Shown here: positions 2,697 to 19,591 of the stretch, one piece after another
How positions within the stretch are numbered: position 1 is the first letter of the stretch
How the letters are laid out: each line of letters begins with the position of its first letter
Source: a virus
Virus record (IMG/VR): IMGVR_UViG_3300020478_000057
Coordinates: 1 to 25,578 of that record
Direction: 5' to 3' (one strand)
DNA length: 25,578 nucleotides
Translations under genes and position numbers: made by a program
The notes under the pieces: generated by a model
The model's input: only the letters and a program-made list of their open reading frames with translations
Database searches by the model: none
What the model was told of the DNA's origin: nothing

Positions 2697-3083
2697 ATGC
2701 CAACCGACGAAGAATTTTTAGGTGCTATTAAAATGGTATCTGGAGAGGAAGTTCTATCAAAGGTGACATCTGTTTCTGACGAGAACGGGGATTATCTTAT
2801 TTTAAATAATCCAATCGTTGTTGAAGAGGTTACAATGCATCAGAAAATTGGTGCTAAGGTATCACCTTGGATGAAGTTTTCAAAGGAAGAGGAATTTATA
2901 GTACCGCTTGATAGAATTATTACTGTGGTAGAATGTGATCCTGAAGTAAAGATGTTCTACGAACTATCCCTCAGAAGGATCGACCCTTTACAACATCCCC
3001 CTAGAAGAGGGAAGGGGCGGGTAGGAACTGTTGACGAAGCAAGGAATCATCTAGAGATTCTCTTTAATAAAAAGAACCAATAG
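2697..3083 (+). CDS. Sm-like (LSm-fold) protein, copy 1
   Basis: The ATG at 2697 lies one base after the uvsW stop and gives 128 residues; the open frame extends further upstream but only inside uvsW. The first 60 residues show the Sm-type pattern: IKMVSGEEVLSKVTSV, then YLILNNPIVVEEV. These are followed by SPWMKFSKEEEFIVPLDRI and a valine-rich final strand (ITVVECDPEVK). The same order (GE-V, YxxxxP, PW, D..I, V.EP) recurs in the proteins at 18557, 18952 and 19352, so the four are paralogues. A metagenomic Sm-like protein of presumed cyanophage origin has a solved structure, but the phage function is unknown. RNA binding is inferred from the fold only. Confidence 0.6.
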   Translation: MPTDEEFLGAIKMVSGEEVLSKVTSVSDENGDYLILNNPIVVEEVTMHQKIGAKVSPWMKFSKEEEFIVPLDRIITVVECDPEVKMFYELSLRRIDPLQHPPRRGKGRVGTVDEARNHLEILFNKKNQ

Positions 3084-3124
3084 CTTCCCTTGAAACTGCC
3101 ACACAGTTAGTGTACACGTATTCT

Positions 3125-3153
3125 GGAACCTTGTCAAGCTTGACGTTTGTTCC
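3125..3153. repeat. inverted repeat over the gp55 promoter -35 box
   Basis: A perfect 12-bp palindrome GTCAAGCTTGAC occupies 3133-3144 and is flanked by a second inverted pair, GGAAC (3125-3129) and GTTCC (3149-3153). The centre overlaps the TTGACG -35 hexamer (3140-3145). The placement suits an operator for a dimeric repressor or activator. It has no loop and no T-run, so it is unlikely to be a terminator. Confidence 0.65.
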
Positions 3154-3168
3154 TTAACATACTATACT
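3140..3168 (+). promoter_or_regulatory. sigma70-type promoter for gp55
   Basis: TTGACG (3140-3145), a 17-bp spacer and TATACT (3163-3168). The predicted transcription start is near 3175, about 15 bases before the gp55 ATG. Twenty-one bases separate the -10 box from the ATG, the same distance as at the promoters before 18557 and 25396. Confidence 0.75.
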
Positions 3169-3181
3169 ATATGTACATACA
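3166..3181 (+). repeat. leader motif ACTATATGTACATACA, copy 1
   Basis: A 16-base motif that recurs before the genes at 7050 (13 of 16 identical) and 9893 (15 of 16). The nine bases GTACATACA are identical in all three. It spans the end of the -10 box and the expected transcription start. It contains the palindrome TATGTACATA (3170-3179, allowing one base). It may be part of a promoter class or an operator. Confidence 0.55.
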
Positions 3182-3189
3182 AACTGAGT

Positions 3190-3651
3190 ATGAAAAAGAA
3201 GTCCGAGCACTACGTAAATAATAAGGAATTTCTAGAAGCCCTGGTAGAATTCAAAGCAGCATGTAAAATTGCTGAAGAGAATGATGCGCCAAGACCACAG
3301 ATATCAAACTATATTGGTTCTTGCTTTCTAAAGATTGCTACTCACCTATCATACAAACCAAACTTTGTGAACTATATGTTCAGAGAGGACATGATATGTG
3401 ATGGTATAGAGAACTGTGTACAGTATATCCAGAACTTTGATCCCGCAAAGTCTAGTAATCCTTTTGCTTATTTCACTCAGATTATATACTACGCTTTCTT
3501 AAGACGGATCTCTAAAGAGAAACGACAACTAGAGATCAAGAACAAGATCATTACTAAGTCTGGATACGATCAAGTATTCCATACTGATGATAGCACCAGT
3601 CACTCTGACTATAACACTATCAAAGAAAACGTACAGGTAAAATCAAATTGA
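3190..3651 (+). CDS. 55: gp55 late-transcription sigma factor
   Basis: A 153-residue protein with the typical gp55 core: an acidic, helical N-terminus, then a region-2-like segment (MICDGIENCVQYIQNFDP, SSNPFAYFTQIIYYAFLRRI, SKEKRQ). T4 gp55 is 185 residues; it directs RNA polymerase to TATAAATA late promoters and is activated by the gp45 clamp, also encoded here. The weak tail (residues 125-153) is variable. The gene has its own sigma70-like promoter with a leader of about 15 bases and no clear Shine-Dalgarno. TATAAATA-like boxes occur in this window at 18483 and 25188. Confidence 0.93.
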   Translation: MKKKSEHYVNNKEFLEALVEFKAACKIAEENDAPRPQISNYIGSCFLKIATHLSYKPNFVNYMFREDMICDGIENCVQYIQNFDPAKSSNPFAYFTQIIYYAFLRRISKEKRQLEIKNKIITKSGYDQVFHTDDSTSHSDYNTIKENVQVKSN

Positions 3652-4682
3652 AGGTAGCAATAATAACAGACCAGCACTTCGGTGCGAGGAAGTCTAGTCG
3701 GATTTTTCATGAATACTTTAAAGATTTTTACGACAATGTATTCTTTCCTACCTTAGAGAAGGAGAATATTAAGGTAGTCTTTGATTTAGGAGATACATTT
3801 GACAATAGAAAAGCAGTAGATATATGGTCAGTTAATTGGTCAAGGAAATATTACTTCGATAGACTACAGGAGATGGGCATAGAGGTTCATTCTCTAGTGG
3901 GTAACCATACAGCATACTATAAGGACACAAACAAGATCAATACACTGGAGAATTTCCTAGGGGAATATCCTAATGTTAAGATTTACGACAGTCCTACTGA
4001 AGTTATGATTGGTGGGCTACCTATACTATTCATTCCATGGATATGTCAGGACAATCAGGAAGAAACATATAAACTCATAGAAGAAACAGAATGTGAGGTG
4101 GCCATGGGTCACCTAGAACTCAATGGATTTGAGGCACATAAAGGATTCATTATGAATCATGGTATAGATAAGGGTCTCTTCTCTAAGTTTAAGCAGGTCT
4201 TCTCAGGTCACTATCATACTAAGTCTAGTCATGAGAACTGTCACTACCTAGGTAACCCCTACCAGATATACTGGAACGATTGGGGTGATGAGAGAGGGTT
4301 CCATATCTACGATACTAATACTCTTAACAAGACTTTCTATGAAAATCCATACAAGATATTTGCTAAGGTATTCTATGATGAAAGAAAACTACCTGACCCT
4401 AAGGAATATAGTGGTAAGATAGTTAAAGTCATCGTAGAGAGGAAGACAGACCCCGCTAAGTTTGAATATTTTATCAGTCAGCTATACGTAAATGGTGTCC
4501 ATGAGATCAAAGTTGTAGAGGATTCCTCATTCGAGTCACAGTTAGAAGACAGCCTAGATATAGAAAAGGAAGATACCCTAACCATACTAGAACAGTATGT
4601 GGATGGCATGGAGTACCATGACAAGGACGGTATCAAGGTATTATTAAAATCATTATATGTAGAAGCTCTAGAAATGGTATGA
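3648..4682 (+). CDS. 47: gp47 Mre11-like nuclease subunit
   Basis: A 344-residue calcineurin-like phosphoesterase with the full motif set: D8-x-H10 (TDQHFG), GD49 (LGDTFDN), GNH (85-87), GHLE near residue 155 and GHYHTK (187-192). With gp46 it forms the Mre11/Rad50-type complex that resects DNA ends for recombination and degrades host DNA. It starts with TTG, and TTGA overlaps the gp55 stop. The length matches T4 gp47 (339 residues). The DUF3110 gene follows with another four-base overlap, placing one small gene between gp47 and gp46. Confidence 0.96.
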   Translation: MKVAIITDQHFGARKSSRIFHEYFKDFYDNVFFPTLEKENIKVVFDLGDTFDNRKAVDIWSVNWSRKYYFDRLQEMGIEVHSLVGNHTAYYKDTNKINTLENFLGEYPNVKIYDSPTEVMIGGLPILFIPWICQDNQEETYKLIEETECEVAMGHLELNGFEAHKGFIMNHGIDKGLFSKFKQVFSGHYHTKSSHENCHYLGNPYQIYWNDWGDERGFHIYDTNTLNKTFYENPYKIFAKVFYDERKLPDPKEYSGKIVKVIVERKTDPAKFEYFISQLYVNGVHEIKVVEDSSFESQLEDSLDIEKEDTLTILEQYVDGMEYHDKDGIKVLLKSLYVEALEMV

Positions 4683-4939
4683 CAATGTTCGTCCTAACAT
4701 TAAAAGGTAAAGAAGACGAGGGTGCTTACTCAGTCGAAGACGAGACTGGGAAGACTCTTTACCTTTTTGTTGACAAAGAGGACGCAATACGCTATGCTGG
4801 TTTACTAGAGGCCGACGACTACCCAGAAATGACTGTGGTAGAAGTGAGCGAGAGAGAAGCGATTGGTGCTTGTGAAGAGCACAATCATCCATACTATGTG
4901 ATCACTCCTGATCAGATTGTAATTCCCCCTGATTTTTAA
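4679..4939 (+). CDS. DUF3110 family protein, cyanobacterial type
   Basis: An 86-residue protein that fits the DUF3110 family found widely in cyanobacteria: an N-terminal FVLTLKGKEDEGAYSV, then LYLFVDKEDAIRYAGLLEAD, DYPEMTVVEVSEREAIG, and a C-terminal YYVITPDQIVIPP. The family's typical layout (xVLLFN..ENEGIYT, ...DA.R.A.LLEAQ.FP.P.VE.I, ...LVP...PP) is recognisable throughout. Its function is not known to me. It is inserted between gp47 and gp46 with an ATGA overlap, so it is probably made together with the nuclease complex. Family assignment is from memory of the pattern; a profile search would settle it. Confidence 0.7.
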   Translation: MTMFVLTLKGKEDEGAYSVEDETGKTLYLFVDKEDAIRYAGLLEADDYPEMTVVEVSEREAIGACEEHNHPYYVITPDQIVIPPDF

Positions 4940-4951
4940 TTTGTCTAAATT

Positions 4952-6673
4952 ATGATTATATTCAAGAAGATCAGATGGAAGAATTTCCTTTCAACTGGTA
5001 ATTCTTACACTGAAATTGACTTGAATGGGTCTCCATCTACATTAATAGTCGGCACTAACGGAGCAGGGAAGAGCACATTGCTTGATGCTATATGCTATGC
5101 CCTGTTCAAGAAACCATTTCGTAAGATATCTCAGAGTCAGTTGGTCAATGCGGTCAACGAAAAGGATACTCTCGTAGAAATTAATTTTGAAATTGGCAGT
5201 ACCCAGTGGACTGTCAAGCGAGGGATGAAACCTAACATCTTTGAGATCTATAGGGATGGTACGGTACTCAATCAAGAGTCCAACCAGAGAGATCAACAGG
5301 TATGGTTGGAACAGTCTGTGTTGAAGCTTAACTATAAGTCATTCACACAGGTGGTGATACTAGGTTCTAGTACATTTGTTCCCTTCATGCAGTTGACCTC
5401 TGTACATCGTAGAGAAGTTATTGAGGATCTACTTGATATTAAGATCTTTTCTACCATGAGTTCTATCCTTAAGGAGAGAGCAAAGGGAGTGAGGGACTCA
5501 CTTACTAAACAGGAGTATGACCTTGACCTTATAAAGGAGAAGGTAGAGATCCAGAAGAGGTTTATTGCTGATCTTAAGCAGCAAAACCAGGACAATAGGA
5601 AATCTAAGCAAGCAGACATTGAAGTTCTAGACCAAGATATTCTCAGACTTGACCAATTAATCCATCAAGGATCTGAGAGTGTCTCTGCTCTAGAAAAAGA
5701 GGTGGATGCTCTTGGTGATGCTAGTAGTAAGGTAGGTGAGTTCACACTTTTTAAAGCAAAGTTTGACGATAAGAAAGAGCGTCTAAATAAAGAGTTAGAA
5801 TTTTTCAATAAGCATGATAACTGTCCGACTTGTAGGCAAACAATCCCTGATAGCCTACGCAAAGACAAGCAGGGAGGCATTGACTCACAGCTTCAAGAAC
5901 TTGCTACCGCTACCGAGAAAGTAAAATTAGAAATTGAGAAATGGAGTGCTGATCTCAAGGTAAAAGAGGGTAAAATTAAGGAGATTAGGAAGCTTCAGAA
6001 TGAGATCACTAAGAATAATAATGAGATAGGGTGGAAGAGAAATTCAATCAAGAAGATAGAGGAAGAGATTGCTAACCCTAAGACAAATAATATTAAGAGA
6101 GAGGAAAAGAACCTTAAAGACCTAGCAACCAAGGGTCTAGAGGCAGAGGTCTCCATGAAAGAGATCAAGAAAAAGAGGGAGAATTTTGACGTAGTATCAA
6201 ACCTTCTTAAAGACACTGGTATTAAGAGTCAGATCATCAAGAAGTATCTACCGATCATGAACAACATGATCAATAAGTACCTTAATGAACTGGATTTCTA
6301 TGTGTCCTTTGAACTCAATGAAAATTTTGAGGAGACTATCAAAGCTAGGTTCAGAGATGAGTTCTCCTATGCTTCTTTCTCTGAAGGAGAGAAGATGAGG
6401 ATCGACCTAGCACTCCTGTTTACGTGGAGAACTATAGCAAAGATGAAAAACAGTGCTAATACTAACCTATTAATACTGGATGAGATCTTTGACAGTTCTC
6501 TTGACATAGCAGGTACGTATGATTTCATGAAAATTCTGAGATCATTTAACGATAGTACAAATGTATTCATTATATCCCATAAACCTGACGTACTACAGGA
6601 TAAATTCGATAGGATCCTCAAGGTTGAGAAGAGACAAAACTTCTCAGTGGTTGCGGAAGAGTCAGGAGTGTGA
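4952..6673 (+). CDS. 46: gp46 Rad50/SbcC-like ATPase subunit
   Basis: A 573-residue SMC-type protein: Walker A GTNGAGKST at 34-42, a Q-loop region following, a long coiled coil (about 165-450) broken by a zinc-hook CPTC at 291-294, the ABC signature SFSEGEKM around S477 and Walker B LLILDEIFD with D510 and E511, then an H-loop FIISHK. It partners gp47 in end resection and recombination-dependent replication. Length is close to T4 gp46 (560). Twelve bases separate it from the DUF3110 gene. Nothing is truncated. Confidence 0.97.
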   Translation: MIIFKKIRWKNFLSTGNSYTEIDLNGSPSTLIVGTNGAGKSTLLDAICYALFKKPFRKISQSQLVNAVNEKDTLVEINFEIGSTQWTVKRGMKPNIFEIYRDGTVLNQESNQRDQQVWLEQSVLKLNYKSFTQVVILGSSTFVPFMQLTSVHRREVIEDLLDIKIFSTMSSILKERAKGVRDSLTKQEYDLDLIKEKVEIQKRFIADLKQQNQDNRKSKQADIEVLDQDILRLDQLIHQGSESVSALEKEVDALGDASSKVGEFTLFKAKFDDKKERLNKELEFFNKHDNCPTCRQTIPDSLRKDKQGGIDSQLQELATATEKVKLEIEKWSADLKVKEGKIKEIRKLQNEITKNNNEIGWKRNSIKKIEEEIANPKTNNIKREEKNLKDLATKGLEAEVSMKEIKKKRENFDVVSNLLKDTGIKSQIIKKYLPIMNNMINKYLNELDFYVSFELNENFEETIKARFRDEFSYASFSEGEKMRIDLALLFTWRTIAKMKNSANTNLLILDEIFDSSLDIAGTYDFMKILRSFNDSTNVFIISHKPDVLQDKFDRILKVEKRQNFSVVAEESGV

Positions 6674-6679
6674 TAGAAT
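6651..6679 (+). promoter_or_regulatory. possible promoter for tRNA-Thr
   Basis: TTGCGG (6651-6656), a 17-bp spacer and TAGAAT (6674-6679) would start transcription about three bases before the tRNA. The -35 matches the consensus at only three of six positions, and the site lies mostly inside gp46, so this is tentative. Confidence 0.25.
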
Positions 6680-6688
6680 CAGTAGGGT

Positions 6689-6760
6689 GCCTCTATAGCT
6701 CAACGGTAGAGCAGTGCTTTTGTAAAGCAAAGGTTGTTGGTTCAAATCCGACTGGAGGCA
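6689..6760 (+). tRNA. tRNA-Thr(UGU)
   Basis: A full cloverleaf of 72 bases. The acceptor stem is GCCTCTA/TGGAGGC with one G-U pair, the D arm is GCTC-loop-GAGC, the T arm is GTTGG-TTCAAAT-CCGAC and the discriminator base is A. The anticodon loop TTTGTAA places TGT at 34-36, which reads ACA threonine codons. The outermost anticodon-stem pair is a G-A mismatch. CCA is not encoded. It lies 15 bases after gp46. Phage tRNAs commonly offset codon-usage differences from the host; that role is inferred. Confidence 0.93.
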
Positions 6761-6780
6761 TGGTCTAAATATATGGTATT

Positions 6781-6960
6781 ATGATTAAAACTCATCTCAT
6801 AGAGAAAAAGAATCCTCAGCACAACCAGGAATGGTCGTGGGAGGAGACCCCAGAGTTACTAGCCGCATTGGAGAAGCTCGATGAAAGTTCCAAACTGGCA
6901 GCATCATTCCAAAAAGGAACAGAAACGCCACCTGAAGCCCCAAGCACTAAGACAAGCTAG
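6781..6960 (+). CDS. small protein after the tRNA
   Basis: A 59-codon ORF from ATG 6781 to TAG 6960, starting MIKTHLIEKKNP. It has a charged core (EWSWEETPELLAALEKLDES) and a Pro/Thr-rich tail. No domain is recognised. It fills most of the gap between the tRNA and the VWA gene, and its composition is that of a real small phage protein. There is no clear Shine-Dalgarno. A CTAAATAT sequence at 6765-6772 could be a weak late-promoter box but is not convincing. Confidence 0.5.
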   Translation: MIKTHLIEKKNPQHNQEWSWEETPELLAALEKLDESSKLAASFQKGTETPPEAPSTKTS

Positions 6961-6994
6961 GGCAAGAAGAAACCAGTTGAAAAAGTGTCTACTC

Positions 6995-7022
6995 AATACC
7001 CCATCCAGACGGAAGGGGTATT
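6995..7022 (+). other. hairpin overlapping the next gene's -10 region
   Basis: AATACCCC (6995-7002) pairs exactly with GGGGTATT (7015-7022), and TCC/GGA (7004-7006 with 7011-7013) extends the pairing inside the loop. No T-run follows, so it is not a standard intrinsic terminator. Its 3' arm touches the TATAGT (7022-7027) box of the following gene. It could end the tRNA/small-ORF transcript, protect RNA ends, or affect the promoter. Confidence 0.6.
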
Positions 7023-7049: not shown

Positions 7050-9206
7050 ATGCTTGAGGTCAAAGGAACACTCGCAAAACTACTTGCTCAGGAAGATCTG
7101 ATTGTAGAACATCGTCAGGTTGAGACAGCACAGTTCGATGTAGAGCGTAGAGTTCTAACCCTGCCACTATGGGAGAAAGCAGAAGGAGCAGTCCTTGATA
7201 TGCTGATCGCACATGAGGTTGGACATGCCCTCTTTACCCCAAATAAGTGGGATCACTTGGGATCAGTACCTCAGTCCTATGTAAACGTTGCTGAGGACAT
7301 CCGTATTGAGAAATTAATGAAGCGTAGATACGCTGGTCTTCCTAAGACTTTCCGTAAAGGTTATGAGAAGTTCGCTGCTGAAGACTTCTTCCAGTTAGAG
7401 GGTCAGGATCTACGCAAGTTCAGTCTTGCTGACCGTCTAAACTTATTCTTTAAGATAGGACACTTCGTTGACATCCCTTTCACAGAAGAAGAAGAGGATT
7501 ATAAGTTAACAGGATGGGATCTGGAAACATTTGAAGAAGTTTTACAGTTTGCCAAGGACATCTATACATATGACAAGGGACAGCAGGAGGGTCAAACCTC
7601 TCAGACCCCATCTGATGACCAGCCATCTCAGGGAGATTCAAACCTGCCATCAGATTCACAACAGGATCAATCCACCCAAGAGTCTTCGGACGATACACCA
7701 GAAAATAACCAAGAGGGGGATCAGGATAGTCCTAAGCAGTCAAATACACAGGGTCAAGACAATCCACCTAAAGAGGATGAAGCAGAGCAATCTACTTCAC
7801 GAGGTGGTAAGCATCATGAAGGGGACTTGGAAGCAAAAACTGATTCTACATTAAACGAATCAATCCGAGGACTTGTTGACTCTTCTGCTAAACCTATCAA
7901 CTATATACAGACACCACAATTAGATCTAAAAAGGATCATTGTAAGTAATACAGATTACATAGAAGAGTTAGAGGGATACTGGAATGAACACTGCTCAAAC
8001 GACAGACTACGTGAACTCAACGGATGGAACCCATTCGCAAAGGTTGACGAAGACTGGAACAAATTCAAGTCTAATTCAAACCGTGAAGTCAATTATCTGG
8101 TCAAAGAGTTTGAATGTCGCAAGGCAGCTTCGAGTTATGCTCGTGCTTCTGTTAGTCGCACTGGGGTTCTCGATACAAAGAAGCTTCATTCTTACAGATA
8201 TAACGATGATATTTTCAAGAAGATAACAATTACACCTGATGGTAAGAATCATGGTCTAATCTTTAACTTAGACTGGTCTGGATCGATGTCAACGGTCATA
8301 CACGATACAGTAAAGCAGTTACTTAATCTTGTATCATTCTGCCGTAAAGTTAAGATTCCATTTGAAGTGTATGCTTTCACAAATGAGTGGGCAAGAGGTG
8401 AGGAATGCTGGTATGAGTCCCCTAAGGTAGATGGTGATGTTATCGTTGCTGGATTCAATCTAATAAATGTTCTAACAAGTCAAGCAAAACCAAGAGATAT
8501 TGACAAGTCAATGCAATATCTTTTCAGAATGTCCAATGCGATGGATTGTTACAACCATTATGGTGTACCTAACAAACTATGTTTATCTGGTACTCCATTG
8601 AATGAAGCATTGGTAACTATGAAGCAGATTATTCCTCAGTTTCAGAAGAAGAATGGTGTTGAGAAAGTACACTTAATTAATCTAACTGATGGTGAGGGAT
8701 CTCCTCTACGTAGATGGTCATCAAGTACTGGTTATTACCATGAAGTTACTGGTGATAGATTAGCTGCTAGAGATTTAGATAACTGTCAGTTACGTGATCG
8801 TAAACTTGGTAGATTGTACAAGGCATTTGATTGGCATACAAGTTACTATGGTGATTCTAAGGTATGGGTAGAGAATCTACGTGATCACTTCCCTTCAGCA
8901 TCTATAGTAATGATTCGTTTGATCTCTGGTAATGAATTCAAGAGAAGTATCTATAGAATGGATAGTTACACTGAGAAGCAAGCTGCTGAATCTGAGTGGA
9001 GGAAGCACAGATCATTCATAGATCACAAATCAGCATACACTCGTTCATTGTATATACATTCTAATACATTTGATGAGAGTAAGAATGAGTTTGAAGTGAA
9101 AGAAGATGCTAAGAAGGGTGACATCACTAGAGCATTCAAGAAGTCACTTAAGAATAAGAAGTCAAGCAAGAGAATACTTAATGAGTTTGTTACATTGATC
9201 GCATGA
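7050..9206 (+). CDS. CobT-like protein: HExxH metallopeptidase motif plus VWA domain
   Basis: A 718-residue protein in three parts. (1) An N-terminal domain with HEVGH at 55-59 and a conserved ED at 82-83, resembling a zinc-peptidase site; catalysis is unproven. (2) An acidic, Gln/Ser/Asp-rich linker at about 175-265. (3) A C-terminal von Willebrand A domain with the MIDAS motif DWSGSMS (D408, S410, S412), a later SGTPLNEAL and NLTDGEGS. Acidic linker plus VWA is the layout of CobT of aerobic cobaltochelatase and of other MoxR-partner VWA proteins. It begins with GGAGG five bases before the ATG and ends in an ATGA overlap with an oxygenase. The AAA+ partner is at 9893. No CobN-like subunit is present here, so a chelatase role is not shown. 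Confidence 0.8.
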   Translation: MLEVKGTLAKLLAQEDLIVEHRQVETAQFDVERRVLTLPLWEKAEGAVLDMLIAHEVGHALFTPNKWDHLGSVPQSYVNVAEDIRIEKLMKRRYAGLPKTFRKGYEKFAAEDFFQLEGQDLRKFSLADRLNLFFKIGHFVDIPFTEEEEDYKLTGWDLETFEEVLQFAKDIYTYDKGQQEGQTSQTPSDDQPSQGDSNLPSDSQQDQSTQESSDDTPENNQEGDQDSPKQSNTQGQDNPPKEDEAEQSTSRGGKHHEGDLEAKTDSTLNESIRGLVDSSAKPINYIQTPQLDLKRIIVSNTDYIEELEGYWNEHCSNDRLRELNGWNPFAKVDEDWNKFKSNSNREVNYLVKEFECRKAASSYARASVSRTGVLDTKKLHSYRYNDDIFKKITITPDGKNHGLIFNLDWSGSMSTVIHDTVKQLLNLVSFCRKVKIPFEVYAFTNEWARGEECWYESPKVDGDVIVAGFNLINVLTSQAKPRDIDKSMQYLFRMSNAMDCYNHYGVPNKLCLSGTPLNEALVTMKQIIPQFQKKNGVEKVHLINLTDGEGSPLRRWSSSTGYYHEVTGDRLAARDLDNCQLRDRKLGRLYKAFDWHTSYYGDSKVWVENLRDHFPSASIVMIRLISGNEFKRSIYRMDSYTEKQAAESEWRKHRSFIDHKSAYTRSLYIHSNTFDESKNEFEVKEDAKKGDITRAFKKSLKNKKSSKRILNEFVTLIA

Positions 9207-9826
9207 AACCACAAGTACATGCCTTATTCCCCACCCCTTTACTGGAGAGTCACATCCCAGTACAAGAGGGGTGGTTGGAGTTTATAAAGACATTAGATTA
9301 TGACCGTACTGCTATGGATAACGGTTATATTACAAGCGATAGAAATATATGGGAACATGATCAGTTAAGACCACTTTATCATGAGATAAAAGATGCTGTA
9401 AAATACTTTGCTTATGGTCAACTGAAGGTATCAAGTCATGTGTACCTAGATCTTCTTAGAGGATGGGCAGTAAAGCATATGCCTGATGACTGGGCACAGA
9501 ATCACTGTCATATGAATAGTATATTCTCAGGAATATATTATCTTGATGTACATGAGAAGAGTGGTGATGTTGTTATGGAAAAGGGTCAACATTATACTAA
9601 TTGTTTCATGCCAACACTAAGCCCTGACGTAACTATGTTCAATCAATTTACTATGCAATCCTGGAGATGCCATCCTGATAATGGTAAGATATTAATATTT
9701 CCTTCACAACTTATACATAATGTGGAACGCAACCTATCAGGTAAGGTAAGGTATTGTATAGGGTTTGACGTTTTTATCAGAGGAACACTGGGAAAGTACG
9801 CAGGATCTCTTGTGACAATAAAATAA
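9203..9826 (+). CDS. 2OG-Fe(II) oxygenase, HxH type (copy 1)
   Basis: A 207-residue protein of the putative 2OG-Fe(II) oxygenase family (PF13759 type). It opens with FPTPLLESHIP, the usual family start. The iron-site region is WAQNHCHMNSIFSGIYYLDV with H101 and H103, and the distal ligand region is ILIFPSQLIHNVERN with H172, followed by GKVRY supplying the arginine expected to bind 2-oxoglutarate. Substrate unknown. It overlaps the VWA gene by four bases and precedes the CobS-like gene, so it may act with that pair; this is inferred from position only. Confidence 0.8.
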   Translation: MKPQVHALFPTPLLESHIPVQEGWLEFIKTLDYDRTAMDNGYITSDRNIWEHDQLRPLYHEIKDAVKYFAYGQLKVSSHVYLDLLRGWAVKHMPDDWAQNHCHMNSIFSGIYYLDVHEKSGDVVMEKGQHYTNCFMPTLSPDVTMFNQFTMQSWRCHPDNGKILIFPSQLIHNVERNLSGKVRYCIGFDVFIRGTLGKYAGSLVTIK

Positions 9827-9892: not shown

Positions 9893-10981
9893 ATGGCTAA
9901 CAAACTCGACAGAGCATCTGAACTTCGTTCTCAGTATGGTAACGAAATCAACGCAGCACAAGTTAGAGAATATTGTGCTTCAAAAGGTTTGACCTATCCT
10001 ACTTTGGCAAAGCAACTAAGAAAGTACAAAGTGGATGGTCAAAGAGGTCAGTGGAATCTTACAGTTCGTGAAGCATTAGAGCAGACACTTACCAAAACTC
10101 CTGCTATTGTAGAGAAGGTAGACCAGAACCTTGTTCCATTCAAGGATGATGAGTTCGTACCATTTGGAAACTTCACTGATCTTAAGAAGGTTATAAGATC
10201 AAAGACCTTCTATCCCGTATTCATTACTGGATTGTCAGGTAACGGTAAGTCCTATTCAGTAGAACAGGCATGTGCCCACTTGAATAGAGAACTGATCCGT
10301 GTTAATATTACTATAGAAACTGATGAGGATGATCTTATTGGTGGTTTTCGTCTTGTTGATGGGAACACTGTTTGGCACAATGGGCCTGTTATAGAAGCAC
10401 TAGAACGTGGTGCTGTACTCCTCTTAGATGAGGTGGACTTAGCATCTAATAAGATTCTTTGTTTACAGAGTATCTTAGAAGGTAAAGGTGTCTTTCTTAA
10501 GAAGATAGGACGTTATGTTAAACCTGCTAAAGGATTCACAGTGATAGCAACTGCTAACACTAAAGGAAAAGGATCCGATGATGGAAGATTCGTTGGTACT
10601 AACGTACTTAATGAAGCATTCCTTGAAAGATTCCCACTCACATTTGAGCAGGAGTATCCATCACCAGTGACTGAAGGCAAGATTCTTGCTTACCACTGTG
10701 ATGATGCTGACTACGTTAAGAACTTATGTGACTGGGCAGACATCATCCGTAAAACATTTAAGGATGGTGGTATCGATGAGGTTATCAGTACAAGGAGACT
10801 GGTTCACATCGCACGTGCTTACTCCATCTTCGGAGATAAAGCAAAAGCAATCTCCACATGTATCTCAAGATTCGATGAGGAGACTACTCAAGCATTCCAA
10901 GAGTTGTATGACAAAGTGGATGCCAAGGTAGAGTTTGACAATGTACAAACATCAGAGTATAATGGAAACGAGGCACAATAA
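9893..10981 (+). CDS. cobS: CobS-like MoxR-family AAA+ ATPase
   Basis: A 362-residue AAA+ protein. A basic N-terminal helical region (about 1-55, with QVREYCASKGLTYPTLAKQL) resembles the small N-terminal domain of CobS. Walker A is GLSGNGKS at 113-120, Walker B is LLLDEVD with D179 and E180, sensor 1 is IATANTKGKG, and an arginine-finger segment NEAFLERFPL follows. Phage genes of this kind are usually called cobS. In bacteria CobS and CobT form the ATPase part of cobaltochelatase with CobN. Here the nearby CobT-like gene has an HExxH motif, so a general MoxR-VWA remodelling or protease-regulating role is equally possible. AAGG lies five bases before the ATG. Confidence 0.85.
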   Translation: MANKLDRASELRSQYGNEINAAQVREYCASKGLTYPTLAKQLRKYKVDGQRGQWNLTVREALEQTLTKTPAIVEKVDQNLVPFKDDEFVPFGNFTDLKKVIRSKTFYPVFITGLSGNGKSYSVEQACAHLNRELIRVNITIETDEDDLIGGFRLVDGNTVWHNGPVIEALERGAVLLLDEVDLASNKILCLQSILEGKGVFLKKIGRYVKPAKGFTVIATANTKGKGSDDGRFVGTNVLNEAFLERFPLTFEQEYPSPVTEGKILAYHCDDADYVKNLCDWADIIRKTFKDGGIDEVISTRRLVHIARAYSIFGDKAKAISTCISRFDEETTQAFQELYDKVDAKVEFDNVQTSEYNGNEAQ

Positions 10982-11348: not shown

Positions 11349-12030
11349 CCGTACGTTTAAAGTACTACGAAATTTAACTTCTATTAATAGATCTATTCAG
11401 TTTAAGCAGGGTAGTCAGTTGTCTACTCTCTCTATTCAGAAGAATGTACTAGCAAGTACAGAGATAGAGGAGATATTTCCTAGGGATTTTGCTATCTATG
11501 ATCTAGATGAGTTCCTCAAGATTTGTTCCTTGTCTGAGGACATGGATATAGATCTAGAGTTTGAAAACGATAACTATGTGACCATTAAGGGTCGTAATAG
11601 TAAGGCAAAGTATTTCTTTGCTGATCCATCTATTGTTATCAGTCCACCTGAGAAGATGCCAGAACTACCTACGGTAGATTGTGAGTTTGATATCTCTATT
11701 GGACAACTCAGATCATTGAGTCAGGCACTTTCCATCTATGGAAATATTGATGACTTCTCTATCATTGGTGGCAATGGTAAGATTACTATTGTAGTTGCTG
11801 ATCGTGAGAATAAATCATCTAACACCTATGCCATTAAGGTGGGTGAAACAGATGCTACATTCCAGTTCAATCTTAAGTCTGAGAATATAGGTAAGATAGA
11901 ACAGTCTCCACAGATAGTTACTGGTTATCATGTGGAAGTTAGCAGGAGTGGAGTGAGTCGTTGGGTTAGTTCTGACGATGTTACTTATCTTATAGCATTG
12001 GAACCTGATTCTACCTATGAAGAAGATTGA
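11335..12030 (+). CDS. 45: gp45 sliding clamp
   Basis: Starting at ATG 11335 the protein has 231 residues, like T4 gp45 (228), and begins MKLSDRTFKVLRNLTSINRS. Family marks include the acidic DLEFENDNYVTIKG, the repeat FDISIGQLRSLSQALS, and the closing YLIALEPDS. The longer open frame upstream to 11179 is only a run-through inside the DUF3310 gene. gp45 forms a trimeric ring that tethers gp43 polymerase and also activates gp55 at late promoters. It overlaps the next oxygenase gene by 14 bases. Confidence 0.93.
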   Translation: MKLSDRTFKVLRNLTSINRSIQFKQGSQLSTLSIQKNVLASTEIEEIFPRDFAIYDLDEFLKICSLSEDMDIDLEFENDNYVTIKGRNSKAKYFFADPSIVISPPEKMPELPTVDCEFDISIGQLRSLSQALSIYGNIDDFSIIGGNGKITIVVADRENKSSNTYAIKVGETDATFQFNLKSENIGKIEQSPQIVTGYHVEVSRSGVSRWVSSDDVTYLIALEPDSTYEED

Positions 12031-13521: not shown

Positions 13522-13748
13522 ATTACGCTACAACCATAGGTTACTTTGCAGCAGCAATGTTGACAGGAGGAATGGTATTCCTAGGCAATAGTTATCACAG
13601 ACTTGCTGATACTAACGAAGAACTGTCAGCAGATATACAATCACTCGTTGAGGCATACTTAACAAGTGACAAGGATTGTTATCTGTTAGCACCTAAACCA
13701 GACGATTATATCATCTGGGAAGAAATGCCATACAAAGAGATGATCTAA
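13518..13748 (+). CDS. small single-pass membrane protein
   Basis: A 76-residue protein with one hydrophobic segment at about residues 4-24 (TTIGYFAAAMLTGGMVFLG) and then an acidic, hydrophilic part with LADTNEELSADIQSLVE. It probably has an N-terminal anchor in the inner membrane. No family is recognised. The ATGA overlap with gp44 and TAATG junction with pyrE show that it is part of the same operon. This is the first gene of the accessory block between gp44 and gp62. Confidence 0.7.
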   Translation: MNYATTIGYFAAAMLTGGMVFLGNSYHRLADTNEELSADIQSLVEAYLTSDKDCYLLAPKPDDYIIWEEMPYKEMI

Positions 13749-14266
13749 TGAAACACACAACGTTTAGTCTAAAGCAAGGACTCAAAGATATTTGTTTACA
13801 GGTTGGTGACTATACTCTCTCTTCTGGTAAGAGGAGTTCACACTATCTAAACTGTAAGCCACTTATACTTAATGGTATCTTCTTACGTATAGTATCTAAA
13901 GAGATGGGACGTTATGTTAAGACTCCTGTAGTGGCAGGTCTAACTCTTGGTGCTGATCCTTTAGTAACAGGAGTAGCATACAAGAAACATCTTAGTGGTT
14001 TGATCATTAGAAAGGAACCTAAAGGACATGGTACTGCCTCTCAAGTAGAGGGACCGTTACCACCTCAAGGTACAGCGATAACTGTACTGGAAGATGTGAC
14101 TACTACAGGTGGATCTGCTATGAAAGCAGTCCAAGTGTTGAGAGATCTCAACTATGAAGTTACTCGTGTAGTAACTATTGTGGACAGAGAAGATGGTGCC
14201 ACTAAAATGTTCAAAGACAATGGGGTTGAACTCGTTAGTCTTTTTAAATTGAATGAATTATTATGA
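13748..14266 (+). CDS. pyrE: orotate phosphoribosyltransferase (PyrE)
   Basis: A 172-residue type I phosphoribosyltransferase. It shows YTLSSGKRSSHYLNCK (substrate-binding strand and loop), RKEPKGHGTASQVEG (the flexible catalytic loop typical of PyrE) and the PRPP-binding VLEDVTTTGGS at 113-123. The enzyme joins orotate and PRPP to form orotidine monophosphate in pyrimidine synthesis. It is shorter than E. coli PyrE (213) but all key motifs remain. It could raise pyrimidine supply for phage DNA synthesis, an inference supported by its location among replisome genes. Confidence 0.9.
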   Translation: MKHTTFSLKQGLKDICLQVGDYTLSSGKRSSHYLNCKPLILNGIFLRIVSKEMGRYVKTPVVAGLTLGADPLVTGVAYKKHLSGLIIRKEPKGHGTASQVEGPLPPQGTAITVLEDVTTTGGSAMKAVQVLRDLNYEVTRVVTIVDREDGATKMFKDNGVELVSLFKLNELL

Positions 14267-15475: not shown

Positions 15476-16332
15476 AATCTTTGAAAACTCCTTTACGTTA
15501 TCCTGGTGGTAAGAGTAGAGCAGTCCCTAAATTATTTGAATTCCTTCCACCAAATATCTCTGAGTTTAGAGAACCTTTTCTAGGTGGTGGTAGTATGGCT
15601 ATCGCTATAACCAAACAGTATCCTGGTATACCTGTCTGGGTTAATGATTTATATGAACCACTGGTAAACTTCTGGCAGGTACTACAGAAGAATGCTGATA
15701 CTTTAGCATTAGATCTAAGTGACCTCAAGAAAGAGTATGACAACCCAGTTAAAGCAAAAGAATTATTTCAATCATTTAAGGAGACACTAAATGAAGGTGA
15801 CGAGATTGATCGAGCGGTCCGTTTTTATACTATTAATAAGTGTTCTTTCAGTGGTCTTACTGAATCGTCCTCGTTCTCAAAGCAAGCCTCTGACAACAAC
15901 TGGACGATGCGTGGCATCGAGCGGCTCCCTGATTATGGAGCCATTATTAAAGACTGGCGAATAACAAACCTAGACTATGCAGAACTTGTTGCAGACTGTA
16001 CTGGACACAGTGAGGATTTAACCTGTGAGTATAGTACATTCATATATGTTGACCCACCTTACAGTATCAAAGACCATCTCTATGGAGAGAAGGGCAGATT
16101 ACATAAAGGATTCGACCATGAAAGGTTCGCAAATGTAATGGATGATACAATAGGGAACGTAATGATTTCATATAATGACAATAAGGAGATCAGGGATCGT
16201 TTTTGGGAGTGGCAGCAGTATGATTGGGATCATACGTACACGATGCGCTCCACTGGTGACTACATGAAAGACCAGAAAGCAAGACGTGAACTTTTACTAA
16301 CAAACTACAATGCAAGGATCACTGGGAGTTAG
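15472..16332 (+). CDS. dam: Dam-type DNA adenine N6-methyltransferase
   Basis: A 286-residue class D12 methyltransferase. The N-terminus has LRYPGGKSRAVPKLF and EPFLGGGSMAIAI (SAM-binding motif I), then VWVNDLYEPLVNFW, and the catalytic DPPY at 194-197 (IYVDPPYSIKD). The C-terminal RRELLLTNY is also typical of the family. The likely target is GATC, as for T4 Dam, but specificity cannot be read from sequence. It may protect phage DNA from restriction or mark it for regulation. ATGA overlap with the upstream oxygenase. Confidence 0.93.
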   Translation: MKSLKTPLRYPGGKSRAVPKLFEFLPPNISEFREPFLGGGSMAIAITKQYPGIPVWVNDLYEPLVNFWQVLQKNADTLALDLSDLKKEYDNPVKAKELFQSFKETLNEGDEIDRAVRFYTINKCSFSGLTESSSFSKQASDNNWTMRGIERLPDYGAIIKDWRITNLDYAELVADCTGHSEDLTCEYSTFIYVDPPYSIKDHLYGEKGRLHKGFDHERFANVMDDTIGNVMISYNDNKEIRDRFWEWQQYDWDHTYTMRSTGDYMKDQKARRELLLTNYNARITGS

Positions 16333-16522
16333 AGTCAAGAACGGTAGATGCTCTCTCTACCATACACGCAGGGGTATCCTGACTGTCTTTGGTAATGGGT
16401 GTCAGTCTGCTATCATACAGGGTGATGAAGTCCATGTCACTCTGAACAATGGTAACGTGGCTATCTACGAGATCAACCAGCATGGTACTGGTGTGAATGG
16501 ACCTCGAAGAATTATAACGTGA
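16310..16522 (+). CDS. small beta-rich protein
   Basis: A 70-residue ORF overlapping the end of dam by 23 bases, and joined to the next oxygenase through GTGA. Sequence is beta-strand-like: RVKNGRCSLYHTRRGILTVF, then DEVHVTLNNGNVAIYEI, which may form a small barrel. No family is recognised. The operon-type junctions on both sides support translation. Confidence 0.5.
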   Translation: MQGSLGVRVKNGRCSLYHTRRGILTVFGNGCQSAIIQGDEVHVTLNNGNVAIYEINQHGTGVNGPRRIIT

Positions 16523-17133
16523 AGCAAGTTAACGTATCCTATCCTGTTGTGTATCGGGATAGGTTTGATTTTGATGTGAAGTTACAGCAGCATTTTGCTG
16601 ATGAACTGTTCAAGAATGTGGATAGGTATGAGGTTCAAACTAGCATAGAGCATGGTGGCAAGTCCACTGCTAATCTAGTTGGTACACCTGGTCATATCTT
16701 CCCACATGATCATGAAATTAATGCTAAGTATATTAAATGGTTAGGTCTCAAGATGCAATACTTAAAAGAAGTATGGCGGTATGATGACTATCCACATTTC
16801 ATATCAAATTCGTGGTACAATGAACACTATGAGGGGGACTGGACTGATGAACATCAGCACGGTCCTTGTGTTGTTGCTACAGCATACATATTAAAACCTC
16901 AGGGATCAGGTGAACTGTTAATAAGAGATCCTCTTACACAGACTAGAGCATTTGAACCCATGAATGTAGAACCTTGGAGACGCATTGATGTATCTCAAGG
17001 TGATGTGATATTTTTTCCAGGATGGTTGCGTCATAAGACGGAACCTAACTATACTAATGAAAGGAGATTGATACTCTCTATGAATATTACTCCTGACCAT
17101 AGTAATGATTTTACTAACCCACCTATATTATGA
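16519..17133 (+). CDS. 2OG-Fe(II) oxygenase, HxH type (copy 4)
   Basis: A 204-residue protein of the same PF13759-like family as the one at 9203. It has SNSWYNEHYEGDWTDEHQHG with an H-x-H pair, AYILKP as the core strand, then GDVIFFPGWLRHKTEPN with the distal histidine, and NERRLILSMNI with the arginine. It starts with GTG, overlapping the preceding stop as GTGA, and ends ATGA into gp62. Substrate unknown. It is the last gene of the accessory block between gp44 and gp62. Confidence 0.8.
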   Translation: MKQVNVSYPVVYRDRFDFDVKLQQHFADELFKNVDRYEVQTSIEHGGKSTANLVGTPGHIFPHDHEINAKYIKWLGLKMQYLKEVWRYDDYPHFISNSWYNEHYEGDWTDEHQHGPCVVATAYILKPQGSGELLIRDPLTQTRAFEPMNVEPWRRIDVSQGDVIFFPGWLRHKTEPNYTNERRLILSMNITPDHSNDFTNPPIL

Positions 17134-17516
17134 GTAGTGAACTTTCTGACATCCTCGCTTCCATTAACAATACTAAAGAACATCTATACGTTGACGACCC
17201 TGATCGCAGTCGCAAATATCCTGCTTACGTCGTTAATAGATGTCTCTCTGGTCATGTTGATAGTATCTTATATGCGAACGAGATGAACAAGGCAGCTCAT
17301 CTGCCTAACCGTCTTCAATATGACTTCTTGCTAAATACTTTGAGGAAACGAAAGCGTTTCACACCTTGGTTGAAGAAAGAACAGATCGAAGATCTGGATC
17401 TGGTCAAGAAACACTATGGATATAGTAATGAAAAAGCAAAGATCGCATTATCTCTTCTTACCAAACCCCAACTAGATTTTATTAGACACAAGCATGACAC
17501 GGGAGGAGTAAGATGA
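17130..17516 (+). CDS. 62: gp62 clamp-loader small subunit
   Basis: A 128-residue protein with the gp62 pattern: YPAYVVNRCLSGHVDSILYA, NEMNKAAHLPNRLQYDFL, KKRFxPW-like KRFTPWLKK, then YGYSNEKAKIALSLL and a C-terminal QLDFI. It is shorter than T4 gp62 (187), as usual in cyanophages. It works with gp44 to load the gp45 clamp. ATGA overlap upstream; ATGA overlap with regA downstream. Confidence 0.88.
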   Translation: MSSELSDILASINNTKEHLYVDDPDRSRKYPAYVVNRCLSGHVDSILYANEMNKAAHLPNRLQYDFLLNTLRKRKRFTPWLKKEQIEDLDLVKKHYGYSNEKAKIALSLLTKPQLDFIRHKHDTGGVR

Positions 17517-17938
17517 CAGCATCCTTCACTGAACAGGAGGTTAAGTGGTCTCCTGACCAGATGGTAGAGGTAAGTTTAAGTGAGCCAGATGACTTCCTTA
17601 AAGTAAGAGAAACATTAACACGTATAGGTGTAGCTTCTAGGAAAGAGAAGAAGTTATATCAATCGTGTCATATCCTGCACAAGCAGGGAAGGTATTACAT
17701 AGTACATTTTAAGGAACTGTTTGCTCTCGACGGTAAGTCAGCAAACTTATCCATTAATGATGTACAGAGACGCAATAGAATCATCCAGTTGCTAAGTGAC
17801 TGGGGTCTAGTTACCATTAATAATTCTGATAATATAGTGGACGTTGCTCCTCTTAGTCAGATCAAAGTACTATCCTATAAAGATAAGAGTGGGTGGACAC
17901 TCGAATCTAAGTACAACATAGGGAAGAAAAAGGCGTAA
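17513..17938 (+). CDS. regA: RegA translational repressor
   Basis: A 141-residue protein. Residues 17-90 match T4 RegA (122 residues) closely: VEVSLSEPDDFLKVRETLTR, KKLYQSCHIL, GRYYIVHFKEL and LLSDWGLV. RegA binds ribosome-binding sites of early phage mRNAs, including in T4 those for the clamp, clamp loader and itself. The start is well fixed: GGGAGGAG at 17501-17508 lies four bases before the ATG. This leaves a 16-residue N-terminal extension compared with T4 RegA. It is the last gene before a terminator. Confidence 0.95.
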   Translation: MTASFTEQEVKWSPDQMVEVSLSEPDDFLKVRETLTRIGVASRKEKKLYQSCHILHKQGRYYIVHFKELFALDGKSANLSINDVQRRNRIIQLLSDWGLVTINNSDNIVDVAPLSQIKVLSYKDKSGWTLESKYNIGKKKA

Positions 17939-17953
17939 AACCGTAATGATAGT

Positions 17954-17978
17954 GAGGGGTTTCAACACCCCTCTTTTT
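17954..17978 (+). terminator. Rho-independent terminator after regA
   Basis: GAGGGGT (17954-17960) pairs with ACCCCTC (17967-17973) around the loop TTCAAC, followed by TTTTT. It ends the clamp-loader/regA operon 16 bases after the regA stop and isolates hsp20. Confidence 0.92.
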
Positions 17979-17986
17979 GTGGCTGG

Positions 17987-17995
17987 TGTTATAAT
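17987..17995 (+). promoter_or_regulatory. extended -10 promoter for hsp20
   Basis: TGT-TATAAT (17987-17995), a TGn extended -10 followed by the exact consensus hexamer. It lies just after the terminator and about 57 bases before the hsp20 ATG. No matching -35 box is seen, as is usual for extended -10 promoters. Confidence 0.55.
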
Positions 17996-18052
17996 TAGTA
18001 GTGGATGCCGAAAGGGTCCACACAATACAAACTCGCTTACAAAGGAGCTATT

Positions 18053-18487
18053 ATGACTAACTTAGCAAGGTTTCACGCTGCGAATCTTCCAGAATTGATG
18101 GAGAGGATTCATAAAAACAGCATCGGTATGGACGATTACCTCAATCGATTCTGGGATGGTGTAGACTCTACTTCAAACTATCCACCATATAATATTATAG
18201 AAATTAACAATGTGGAATCGAGGTTGGAAGTTGCCCTGGCGGGCTTCAAAAAAGATGAGCTCAAAGTCTTTACGGAGTTTGGAAAATTACATGTCGAGGG
18301 CAGCAAAGAAAAACAGGAAGATGCTGGAACGTTTAGACATAGAGGAGTGGCCGCAAGGTCGTTCTCTAGGGTCTGGTCACTCTCTGATGATACCGAAATA
18401 CGAGGAGTCGAATTCAATGACGGATTACTCGTTGTAAAACTCGGTAAGATTGTTCCTGACCATCATGCCCGTAAGGAGTATCTATAA
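18053..18487 (+). CDS. hsp20: Hsp20 small heat-shock protein
   Basis: Taking ATG 18053, which has AAAGGAG five bases upstream, the protein has 144 residues (an in-frame start at 18005 is open but lacks a good site). The alpha-crystallin domain covers about residues 45-140: PPYNIIEINN, RLEVALAGFKKDELKVF, GKLHVEGSKE, the motif SFSRVWSLSDDTEIRGVEF and NDGLLVVKLGKIVP. Small heat-shock proteins hold unfolding proteins as oligomers. The gene is a signature of T4-like cyanophages, commonly near the replication genes as here. Its stop codon overlaps a late promoter. Confidence 0.92.
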   Translation: MTNLARFHAANLPELMERIHKNSIGMDDYLNRFWDGVDSTSNYPPYNIIEINNVESRLEVALAGFKKDELKVFTEFGKLHVEGSKEKQEDAGTFRHRGVAARSFSRVWSLSDDTEIRGVEFNDGLLVVKLGKIVPDHHARKEYL

Positions 18488-18490
18488 ATA
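18483..18490 (+). promoter_or_regulatory. T4-type late promoter TATAAATA
   Basis: An exact match to the T4 late promoter octamer recognised by gp55. It overlaps the hsp20 stop (18485-18487). With standard spacing the transcript would start near 18496, just before the 12-bp hairpin at 18500, giving a late mRNA for the Sm-like genes with a 5' hairpin. Confidence 0.7.
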
Positions 18491-18499
18491 TAAAAACTG

Positions 18500-18527
18500 G
18501 GGGAGCTTGACATCTGTCAGGCTCCCC
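18500..18527 (+). other. 12-bp hairpin containing a -35 box
   Basis: GGGGAGCTTGAC (18500-18511) pairs with GTCAGGCTCCCC (18516-18527), with one G-U pair and the loop ATCT. Only ATT follows, with no T-run, so terminator strength is doubtful. The stem contains TTGACA, the -35 box of the promoter at 18507. Confidence 0.85.
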
Positions 18528-18535
18528 ATTATAAT
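18507..18535 (+). promoter_or_regulatory. perfect consensus sigma70 promoter for the Sm-like/polymerase genes
   Basis: TTGACA (18507-18512), a 17-bp spacer and TATAAT (18530-18535): both boxes and the spacing are ideal. The transcript should start near 18542, leaving a leader of about 15 bases. The -35 lies in the right half of a hairpin stem. Confidence 0.85.
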
Positions 18536-18556
18536 ATAGAGGTTAATTAATAAGCC

Positions 18557-18955
18557 ATGATCGACGAGACAAGAATTAAGTTACTGTTGACACGTGATGG
18601 CGATACCGTCATCTGTGATCTTCAAGAGGCAGTTGACAAAGAGACTGGAAATAGACAGGCATACTTAATGACTATTCCATATAAGGTAGAGATAACAGAT
18701 CAACCATCACAGTTGACTGATCCAGAAACCTTTGAGGATTTAGAAATTAAGATCAGGTATACACCATGGAATCCATTCACTATTGATCAAAGGATTGCTA
18801 TAGTACCTGACTATGTTGTATCTGTAATGGAACCAGCACCAAGTTTACTTCAGACATACCTAAGTAATGTACGTAAGAAGCAAGGTGATCAAGGTCTACC
18901 AACTCCACCAGTTACCAATCCTGAAATTATCGCACCTGATGGTACAGCAACATGA
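18557..18955 (+). CDS. Sm-like (LSm-fold) protein, copy 2
   Basis: A 132-residue paralogue of the Sm-like protein at 2697: IKLLLTRDGDTVICDLQEAV, AYLMTIPYKVEI, RYTPWNPFTID, IVPDYVVSVMEPAPSLLQTYL. The C-terminal tail is Pro/Thr-rich. First gene after the consensus promoter; it overlaps the next Sm-like gene as ATGA. RNA-binding role is inferred; the tandem copies may form mixed rings. No Shine-Dalgarno is evident. Confidence 0.6.
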   Translation: MIDETRIKLLLTRDGDTVICDLQEAVDKETGNRQAYLMTIPYKVEITDQPSQLTDPETFEDLEIKIRYTPWNPFTIDQRIAIVPDYVVSVMEPAPSLLQTYLSNVRKKQGDQGLPTPPVTNPEIIAPDGTAT

Positions 18956-19419
18956 GTATAAAGTTATTGATGCTCAGGACTGGTGAAGAGGTTATCGCTG
19001 AAGTCAAAGAGATAGTGGAACCTGAGACTGAGAAGCCTCTAGGTTATCATATGCATAAACCATTCCGATTAGATATTGTCACCAACGCAACTGGTGATAA
19101 GGGATATCAGTTGGAGTGGTTTCCTTGGGCTCCACTAAGTAAAGATAAAGATTTCTTTCTACCAGGCAGTCATGTGGTGACAGTTTATGAACCACTGGAT
19201 GCTATCCTATCTCAGTATGTTTCTGCCATAGATGAGGCTAGGTATGATGAGAACTTTAAGAAGCATGAAGCTAGGTTTAATCTAAGTTATGAAGATCAAG
19301 ACCTTGATGATATGTTTAACGAAGCAGAAAAAATGTTAAATGATATGGAAGATGGAAACACAACTGATACTACTGAAGTCGGGAACGTACCTGATCAGCC
19401 AGATAGAGACGCTGGATGA
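18952..19419 (+). CDS. Sm-like (LSm-fold) protein, copy 3
   Basis: A 155-residue paralogue: IKLLMLRTGEEVIAEVKEIV, YHMHKPFRLDIV, LEWFPWAPLSKDKDFFLP, HVVTVYEPLDAILSQY. It has an extra acidic C-terminal extension (about residues 100-155: YEDQDLDDMFNEAEKML, then Thr/Asp-rich) absent from the other copies. The last 68 bases overlap the next Sm-like gene in another frame, so the acidic tail is coded by the same DNA as that protein's start. Confidence 0.6.
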   Translation: MSIKLLMLRTGEEVIAEVKEIVEPETEKPLGYHMHKPFRLDIVTNATGDKGYQLEWFPWAPLSKDKDFFLPGSHVVTVYEPLDAILSQYVSAIDEARYDENFKKHEARFNLSYEDQDLDDMFNEAEKMLNDMEDGNTTDTTEVGNVPDQPDRDAG

Positions 19420-19591
19420 GGAGCCTGCTGCTCATCTCTATCAACCGTTTCAAGTTAAGGACGATGGTACATTAGAACCATGGCCACTTCACACAGTGGA
19501 CGATGACGTGTTGATTTATTCTGATACCATTGCTACAATCTTAGAACCTAAGGAGGAAGTCCTTAAGAAGTATAAGACCTGTACTACATGA
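19352..19591 (+). CDS. Sm-like (LSm-fold) protein, copy 4, short
   Basis: From ATG 19352 the protein has 79 residues and aligns directly with the other copies: TQLILLKSGTYLISQIETL, HLYQPFQV, LEPWPLHTVDDDVLIYSDTI, ILEPKEEVLKKY. An ATG at 19340 would add four residues; that ATG directly follows an in-frame TAA at 19337. It overlaps copy 3 by 68 bases and ends as ATGA into the polymerase gene. It is the smallest, consisting of the Sm core alone. Confidence 0.55.
   Translation: METQLILLKSGTYLISQIETLDEEPAAHLYQPFQVKDDGTLEPWPLHTVDDDVLIYSDTIATILEPKEEVLKKYKTCTT

Follow-up and report, generated by a model that had tools for sequence, protein, structure and literature searches.

Why does a T4-like cyanophage keep four Sm-like genes inside its replication core, and how do phages whose hosts lack Hfq manage without it? 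We address these questions in a window of 25,578 bases (IMG/VR record IMGVR_UViG_3300020478_000057; the window is the whole stretch of DNA analysed), which holds a T4-like cyanophage replication core. It encodes four homologous proteins, one between uvsW and gp55 and three ahead of the DNA polymerase gene gp43, which share a Sm-like fold, belong to the phage core and occupy fixed positions beside replication and late-transcription genes. Our preferred explanation, to which we assign a probability of roughly one half, is that they are paralogues of a phage-specific Sm-like family (3BY7/PF16243/PF20198), expected to form small beta-barrel rings, and that they would act mainly through protein contacts with the replication, recombination and late-transcription machinery. 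The four genes are as follows:

2697..3083, + strand: Sm-like protein 1 (P0001, 128 amino acids); phrog_471 / T4-GC 139; PF16243 at 43.5 bits, phrog_471 at E 5e-34
18557..18955, + strand: Sm-like protein 2 (P0002, 132 amino acids), first tandem copy; phrog_431 / T4-GC 176; PF20198 at 27.2 bits, barely above the cut-off of 27, phrog_431 at E 5e-26
18952..19419, + strand: Sm-like protein 3 (P0003, 155 amino acids), second tandem copy; phrog_431 / T4-GC 176; PF20198 at 34.4 bits
19352..19591, + strand: Sm-like protein 4 (P0004, 79-83 amino acids); phrog_483 / T4-GC 177/417; PF20198 at 69.2 bits, phrog_483 at E 1e-25

On sequence comparison the four window proteins are true homologues, paralogues of one superfamily whose resemblance lies far above chance. 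Each exceeds a curated Pfam cut-off (29.4 bits for PF16243, Sm_like; 27 bits for PF20198, DUF6561), P0001 also matches PF20198 below its cut-off, and the PHROG models 471, 431, 527 and 483 cross-match one another. Whichever of the four proteins served as the starting point, iterative hidden Markov model (HMM) searches of 1,829 open reading frames (ORFs), taken from all six frames of ten genomes, ended with the same set of 33: one follows gp44, and the other 32 are located at the uvsW/gp55 or gp43 sites. The homology proposed by a first-pass annotation of this DNA is thereby upheld, with ORFs at the positions it gave. The ordered motif pattern that it saw in all four proteins does exist, although the first and fourth proteins depart from it in places. 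The P-W motif occurs in all four, and a GE/GD motif in three (SGEEV, DGDTV, TGEEV), the fourth having SGTYL; the second and third proteins have a strict Y-x4-P, which becomes Y-x5-P in the first and loses its Y in the fourth; and the final motif is E-P in three proteins and E-C in the first. Beyond these motifs, P0001 combines the Sm-like core with a conserved C-terminal helix and P0003 carries a long acidic C-terminal tail. The start of P0004 is taken as the ATG at 19352, within an ORF that has a possible start at 19340.

Structure prediction supports the Sm-like fold well for P0001 and P0003, and homology alone extends it to P0002 and P0004. AlphaFold2 models were built from input alignments of IMG/VR relatives. 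Both show confident barrels. The mean predicted local distance difference test score (pLDDT) is 86.6 for P0001; P0003 averages 73.9, scoring about 85-92 over residues 1-40 and 71-90 and lower in its middle part, and its tail is disordered. For both models the top PDB match is 3BY7, with template modelling scores (TM-scores, target) of 0.81 for P0001 (root-mean-square deviation 2.3) and 0.87 for P0003 (1.5), and the next structural matches after 3BY7 and TIP60 are Sm and LSm chains of spliceosomal and Lsm complexes. The strand order is that of a Sm-type five-stranded barrel; the models begin with the first strand, no N-terminal helix preceding it, and a C-terminal helix is present. P0003 also matches 3BY7 by sequence (E 2e-6), and the profiles of the three window subfamilies find it at E 1e-7, 7e-6 and 3e-5, the last of these being the profile of P0004. 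A Sm-like fold had been put forward from the letters alone, and the predictions agree with it; a non-Sm fold was not seen. Rings would be in keeping with the known structures: 3BY7 has five chains, and the LSm unit of TIP60 (7EQ9), an engineered 3BY7 derivative, is called pentameric in a review (PMC10374429). As a separate observation, BFVD entry A0A8S0HZU4 is a 605-residue viral protein, part of which matches the Sm-like model and which may be a fusion.

The Sm-like genes stand at fixed sites in related phages. The window genes run uvsY, uvsW, Sm-like, gp55, gp47, gp46, a large peptidase-like gene, an AAA ATPase gene, gp45, gp44, gp62, regA, hsp20, three Sm-like genes, gp43, uvsX and gp41, which is almost the order in Prochlorococcus phage P-HM2. 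The tandem of three ahead of the polymerase was thus described correctly, and regA lies two genes upstream of it. The neighbours that matter here are:

1226..2695, + strand: uvsW helicase, conserved left neighbour of Sm-like protein 1
3190..3651, + strand: gp55 late sigma factor (P-HM2 annotation), conserved right neighbour of Sm-like protein 1
17513..17938, + strand: RegA translational repressor (PF01818, E 1.6e-42)
18005..18487, + strand: Hsp20 (PF00011, E 1.5e-11), gene preceding the composite promoter
19588..22083, + strand: gp43 DNA polymerase, an ORF homologous to the annotated P-HM2 gp43 (phmmer query), which ends the Sm-like gene string

We searched ten named cyanophage records whole, as the broader sample, together with IMG/VR contigs that were fetched using the window proteins and are therefore biased towards close relatives. 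Every one of the ten named records has 3-4 family copies, confined to two to three sites. The phrog_471 (T4-GC 139) copy lies between uvsW and gp55, and the phrog_431 and phrog_483 copies lie directly before gp43; Syn19 and Syn33 have a further copy, phrog_527 (T4-GC 712), near gp44. The tandem duplication of phrog_431 seen in the window is common to P-HM1 and P-HM2. Among the IMG/VR loci, the order uvsW-Sm-gp55 is found in 86/86 with both neighbours in reach, and gp43 comes next after phrog_483 in 87/88. P-HM2 GC530, located among the Sm-like genes, was considered and set aside as it matches phrog_23688 only.

The first of these arrangements reaches beyond cyanophages. Two copies are present in pelagiphage Mosig, one in uvsW-Sm-gp55 order and the other one gene before gp43, and two in Methylophilales phage Melnitz, one in the same order and the other near recA and a helicase gene. 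Sinorhizobium phage phiM12 also has the uvsW-Sm-gp55 order, its weak profile scores (E 2e-4 and 6e-4) being backed by a fold match. A tblastn search of 50,697 phage records, with E <= 5-10, returned no homologue from T4 phages of the E. coli type. A cellular origin was also considered: a scan of 84,980 species genomes produced four hits, each on a contig of a metagenome-assembled genome with uvsW and gp55 flanks, that is, a phage contig binned with cells. These contigs (L213-L216), binned as Woesearchaeota and Gammaproteobacteria, are T4-like phage contigs with uvsW-Sm-gp55. Because the cellular scan returned phage contigs only and the synteny is conserved, we regard the family, at the search sensitivity used, as one of phages, long settled at fixed sites next to genes for replication and late transcription. 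In a tree of the family, phrog_471, phrog_483 and phrog_527 each fall on one side of a strong branch and phrog_431 groups less firmly. This separation indicates that the main paralogues are older than the sampled cyanophages. The two window phrog_431 copies are not sisters, and long branches leave the date of their duplication uncertain.

On many cyanophage records phrog_471 / T4-GC 139 is named "methylamine utilization", and the other groups are catalogued as unknown. A search of the open-access literature for cyanophages and "methylamine utilization" returned nothing, so the label stands without visible support; it looks like a propagated misannotation of what is, in the P0001-type protein, a Sm-like protein.

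The fold and the positions leave a choice of function, and the main rival to our explanation is the one offered by the first-pass annotation: that these are phage Hfq- or LSm-like RNA chaperones, perhaps hetero-oligomeric, which regulate mRNAs of the phage or the host and stand in for an Hfq that is missing or weak in the host. We consider this possible though somewhat unlikely. The Sm-like fold, with LSm and Sm chains as next-best structural matches, speaks for it, as do the three to four divergent paralogues, reminiscent of hetero-oligomeric LSm rings, and the neighbouring RegA, itself an RNA-level regulator. The hosts supply a further argument. Hfq is reported missing in 10/12 Prochlorococcus strains (PMC2518516), including MED4, the host of P-HM1 and P-HM2, which are the closest named relatives of the window phage; reliance on host Hfq would therefore be impossible there. 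The same core set is nevertheless present in Synechococcus phages, although cyanobacteria other than most Prochlorococcus reportedly have an Hfq homologue (PMC2518516).

The proteins themselves also offer little sign of a classical RNA site. Pfam searches gave no match of the four window proteins to LSM (PF01423) or Hfq profiles, Hfq hits being sought to E <= 10, and among 145 relatives a single one matched LSM, at E 0.085 only, with no Hfq model matched at E <= 10. At the Sm2-like turn, a site placed by strand position and not by superposition, the basic residue is absent in phrog_431 and phrog_483 (K/R 0-5% at the turn columns). All three well-sampled subfamilies are strongly negative, with a domain charge of about -6 to -8 and an isoelectric point (pI) of about 4.5; RegA of the window has a pI of 9.3. 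The missing LSM and Hfq matches, the turn without a basic residue in phrog_431 and phrog_483 and the strong negative charge reduce the likelihood of a classical Hfq-like role, and on balance the sequences tell against an RNA site of the classical Sm/Hfq type. The gp43-side copy of pelagiphage Mosig is near neutral while the cyanophage copies are acidic, and an ancestral nucleic-acid role is accordingly possible.

Several observations weigh against our preferred explanation of action through protein contacts. In phrog_471 the Sm2-like turn does carry K/R, at 39-62% in two columns, without the following Gly. The charge comparison that speaks against an RNA site, in which the Sm-like domains exceed 95% of neighbouring ORFs in negative charge, uses a control set that contains some spurious ORFs, and its related rows lack independence. 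Acidity is compatible with RNA binding, since several eukaryotic LSm proteins of RNA-binding rings are acidic. A relative in Sinorhizobium phage Phosso (469 kb; L210:5968-6339) has, unlike the acidic cyanophage copies, an Arg/Gly-rich tail (GRRGGRGR), a hint that some members touch nucleic acid. Finally, the Sm-like genes lie near RegA and other RNA-level control as well as near replication genes.

The acidity bears equally on a role in particle assembly. A 2025 cryo-electron microscopy preprint describes E. coli Hfq as sitting on T4 gp14, where it forms the second gate for the genome (PMC12270204), and marine T4-like phages, which encode their own Sm-like proteins and in the case of MED4 infect a host without Hfq, might place a Sm-like ring in the neck instead of the host Hfq hexamer. 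We judge this highly improbable: the genes sit among replication genes behind an early-type promoter and not with neck genes, and the acidic surface of T4 gp14 binds a basic Hfq surface (PMC12270204), but the Sm-like proteins here are acidic. Virion proteomics cannot decide the matter because mature T4 virions are themselves without Hfq (PMC12270204); the available part of the virion-proteomics text of Sullivan 2010 does not name the Sm-like clusters.

In their expression layout, the gp43-side genes are tightly interlocked. The relevant features are:

18500..18527, + strand: 12-bp RNA hairpin (dG, free energy, -24.5 kcal/mol; z -6.1), in a terminator-like position after hsp20
18507..18535, + strand: perfect sigma70-type promoter TTGACA-N17-TATAAT (12/12), ahead of the Sm-like/gp43 string
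18952..18955, + strand: ATGA stop/start overlap of P0002 and P0003, read from the sequence
19588..19591, + strand: ATGA stop/start overlap of P0004 and gp43, read from the sequence

The P0003 and P0004 frames overlap by 68 bases, and the last Sm-like gene overlaps gp43 by -4 (ATGA) in 75/86 relatives with an assigned gp43 start and by -1 in four more. Since frame ends overlap throughout P0002-P0003-P0004-gp43, translational coupling along the string is suggested. These overlaps also invite a reading in which the small genes serve mainly as a translational-coupling leader in cis that governs how much polymerase is made, a task performed in T4 by the gp43 operator hairpin (PMC3014915); in the window the interval equivalent to that operator is protein-coding. 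Such a leader is nonetheless an improbable account of the family, as protein-level conservation across distant phages would be needless for a pure leader and the copy between uvsW and gp55 would be left unexplained.

The perfect promoter reported ahead of the three copies and the polymerase is indeed there, and it is retained 12/12 at this site in 56/69 relatives' loci, against 0/500 shuffles. Most of its -35 hexamer is held in the 5' arm of the hairpin, and hairpin and promoter are both kept in 44/45 distinct relatives. The stem covaries, with 28 two-sided changes in a 17-sequence alignment against 7.5 in shuffles, far above slid versions; the hairpin is followed by a short U-tract only. Together, 18500-18535 fits a PeSL-like composite of promoter and hairpin with a covarying stem, and a putative terminator. 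To judge from their titles, Arbiol 2010 and Comeau 2014 reportedly describe PeSL composite promoter-terminator motifs in T4-like phages. Two further 12/12 promoter matches occur in the window, at 10935 (inside a coding region) and 25346, neither with a strong hairpin.

Returning to the explanation that we prefer, the fixed placement of the family with gp43, gp44, gp55 and UvsW leads us to infer an accessory-ring role. The conserved phrog_471 copy would be made together with UvsW and gp55, and phrog_431 (duplicated here) and phrog_483 would be made from the composite promoter-hairpin. With the last Sm-like gene probably coupled in translation to gp43, polymerase and Sm-like ring would be produced together. 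The resulting homo- or hetero-oligomeric rings would most likely bind protein partners rather than serve as classical RNA chaperones. A bolder proposal, which we make tentatively and hold to be unlikely, is that marine T4-like phages possess a dedicated hetero-oligomeric Sm-like ring system of co-conserved paralogues, a standing part of the replication and late-transcription machinery that in Hfq-less hosts does jobs other T4-like phages leave to host Hfq.

The remainder of the window yielded several observations of its own. Rfam models matched a tRNA alone, and no known small RNA was found near the Sm-like genes; the tRNA-Thr (anticodon TGT) lies at 6688-6761, between gp46 and the peptidase-like gene. 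Directly after regA, at 17954-17973, there is a terminator-like hairpin, GAGGGGTTTCAACACCCCTC, followed by TTTTT. PF13759 (2OG-Fe(II) oxygenase family) is matched by the proteins at 9203-9826 and 23050-23694, and the ORFs at 12017, 14963 and 16519 resemble PF13759 proteins by eye. A phosphoribosyltransferase-like gene at 13748-14266 resembles orotate phosphoribosyltransferase by eye and has a weak PF14681 match below cut-off.

How much of this is new? The first-pass annotation suggested an unreported system, and that holds in part. The fold was solved in 2008 (3BY7), Pfam models exist, UniProt lists some members as "Sm-like domain-containing protein", and individual gene clusters are already known. 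In the open-access literature we found no description of the paralogues as one set with fixed replisome-side positions, and in this the suggestion stands. The family matters because its members are core genes of very abundant ocean viruses and almost invariably adjoin those for the DNA polymerase, the late sigma factor and UvsW, yet they are catalogued as unknown or as "methylamine utilization". Seen as a single Sm-like superfamily that keeps to two sites and reaches rhizobial and pelagic T4-like phages, the family has a function that can be tested directly.

Several known systems can be set beside the window family. The nearest is 3BY7, a metagenomic protein described as "structurally similar to Sm/LSm-like RNA-binding proteins", which with TIP60 shares both fold and sequence family with the window proteins; a literature search found no paper on that structure. 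It differs in being less acidic (about -2) than the cyanophage copies and in scoring best with phrog_527, not with the window subfamilies. Its closest named relative is the pelagiphage Mosig protein (43% identity) and not any named cyanophage, so the cyanophage origin once presumed for it is doubtful. Bacterial Hfq has a Sm-like fold, with low structural similarity (engineered Hfq 6XYJ is among the PDB matches), whereas the window proteins have no Hfq profile match, lack an N-terminal helix in the models and are acidic. The Sm and LSm proteins of eukaryotes and archaea are the next-best structural matches and likewise come as multiple paralogues, but the window family has no LSM profile match and the Sm2 Arg-Gly is not conserved. 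Rof (YaeO), a Sm-like protein that inhibits Rho by binding it (PMC11018626), is a precedent for action on a protein machine, with a different partner. The PeSL motifs of T4-like phages, as outlined in a citing paper (PMC4503421), have an early-type promoter overlapping a stem-loop, as at 18500-18535, the window element differing in that it stands at the head of a Sm-like/gp43 string. Finally, the window proteins belong to PF16243 (P0001) and PF20198 (P0002-P0004) and to phrog_471, phrog_431 (twice) and phrog_483. The Pfam, PHROG and T4-GC catalogues keep these groups, with phrog_527 and T4-GCs 139, 176, 177/417 and 712, as separate families, whereas here they are paralogues of one superfamily.

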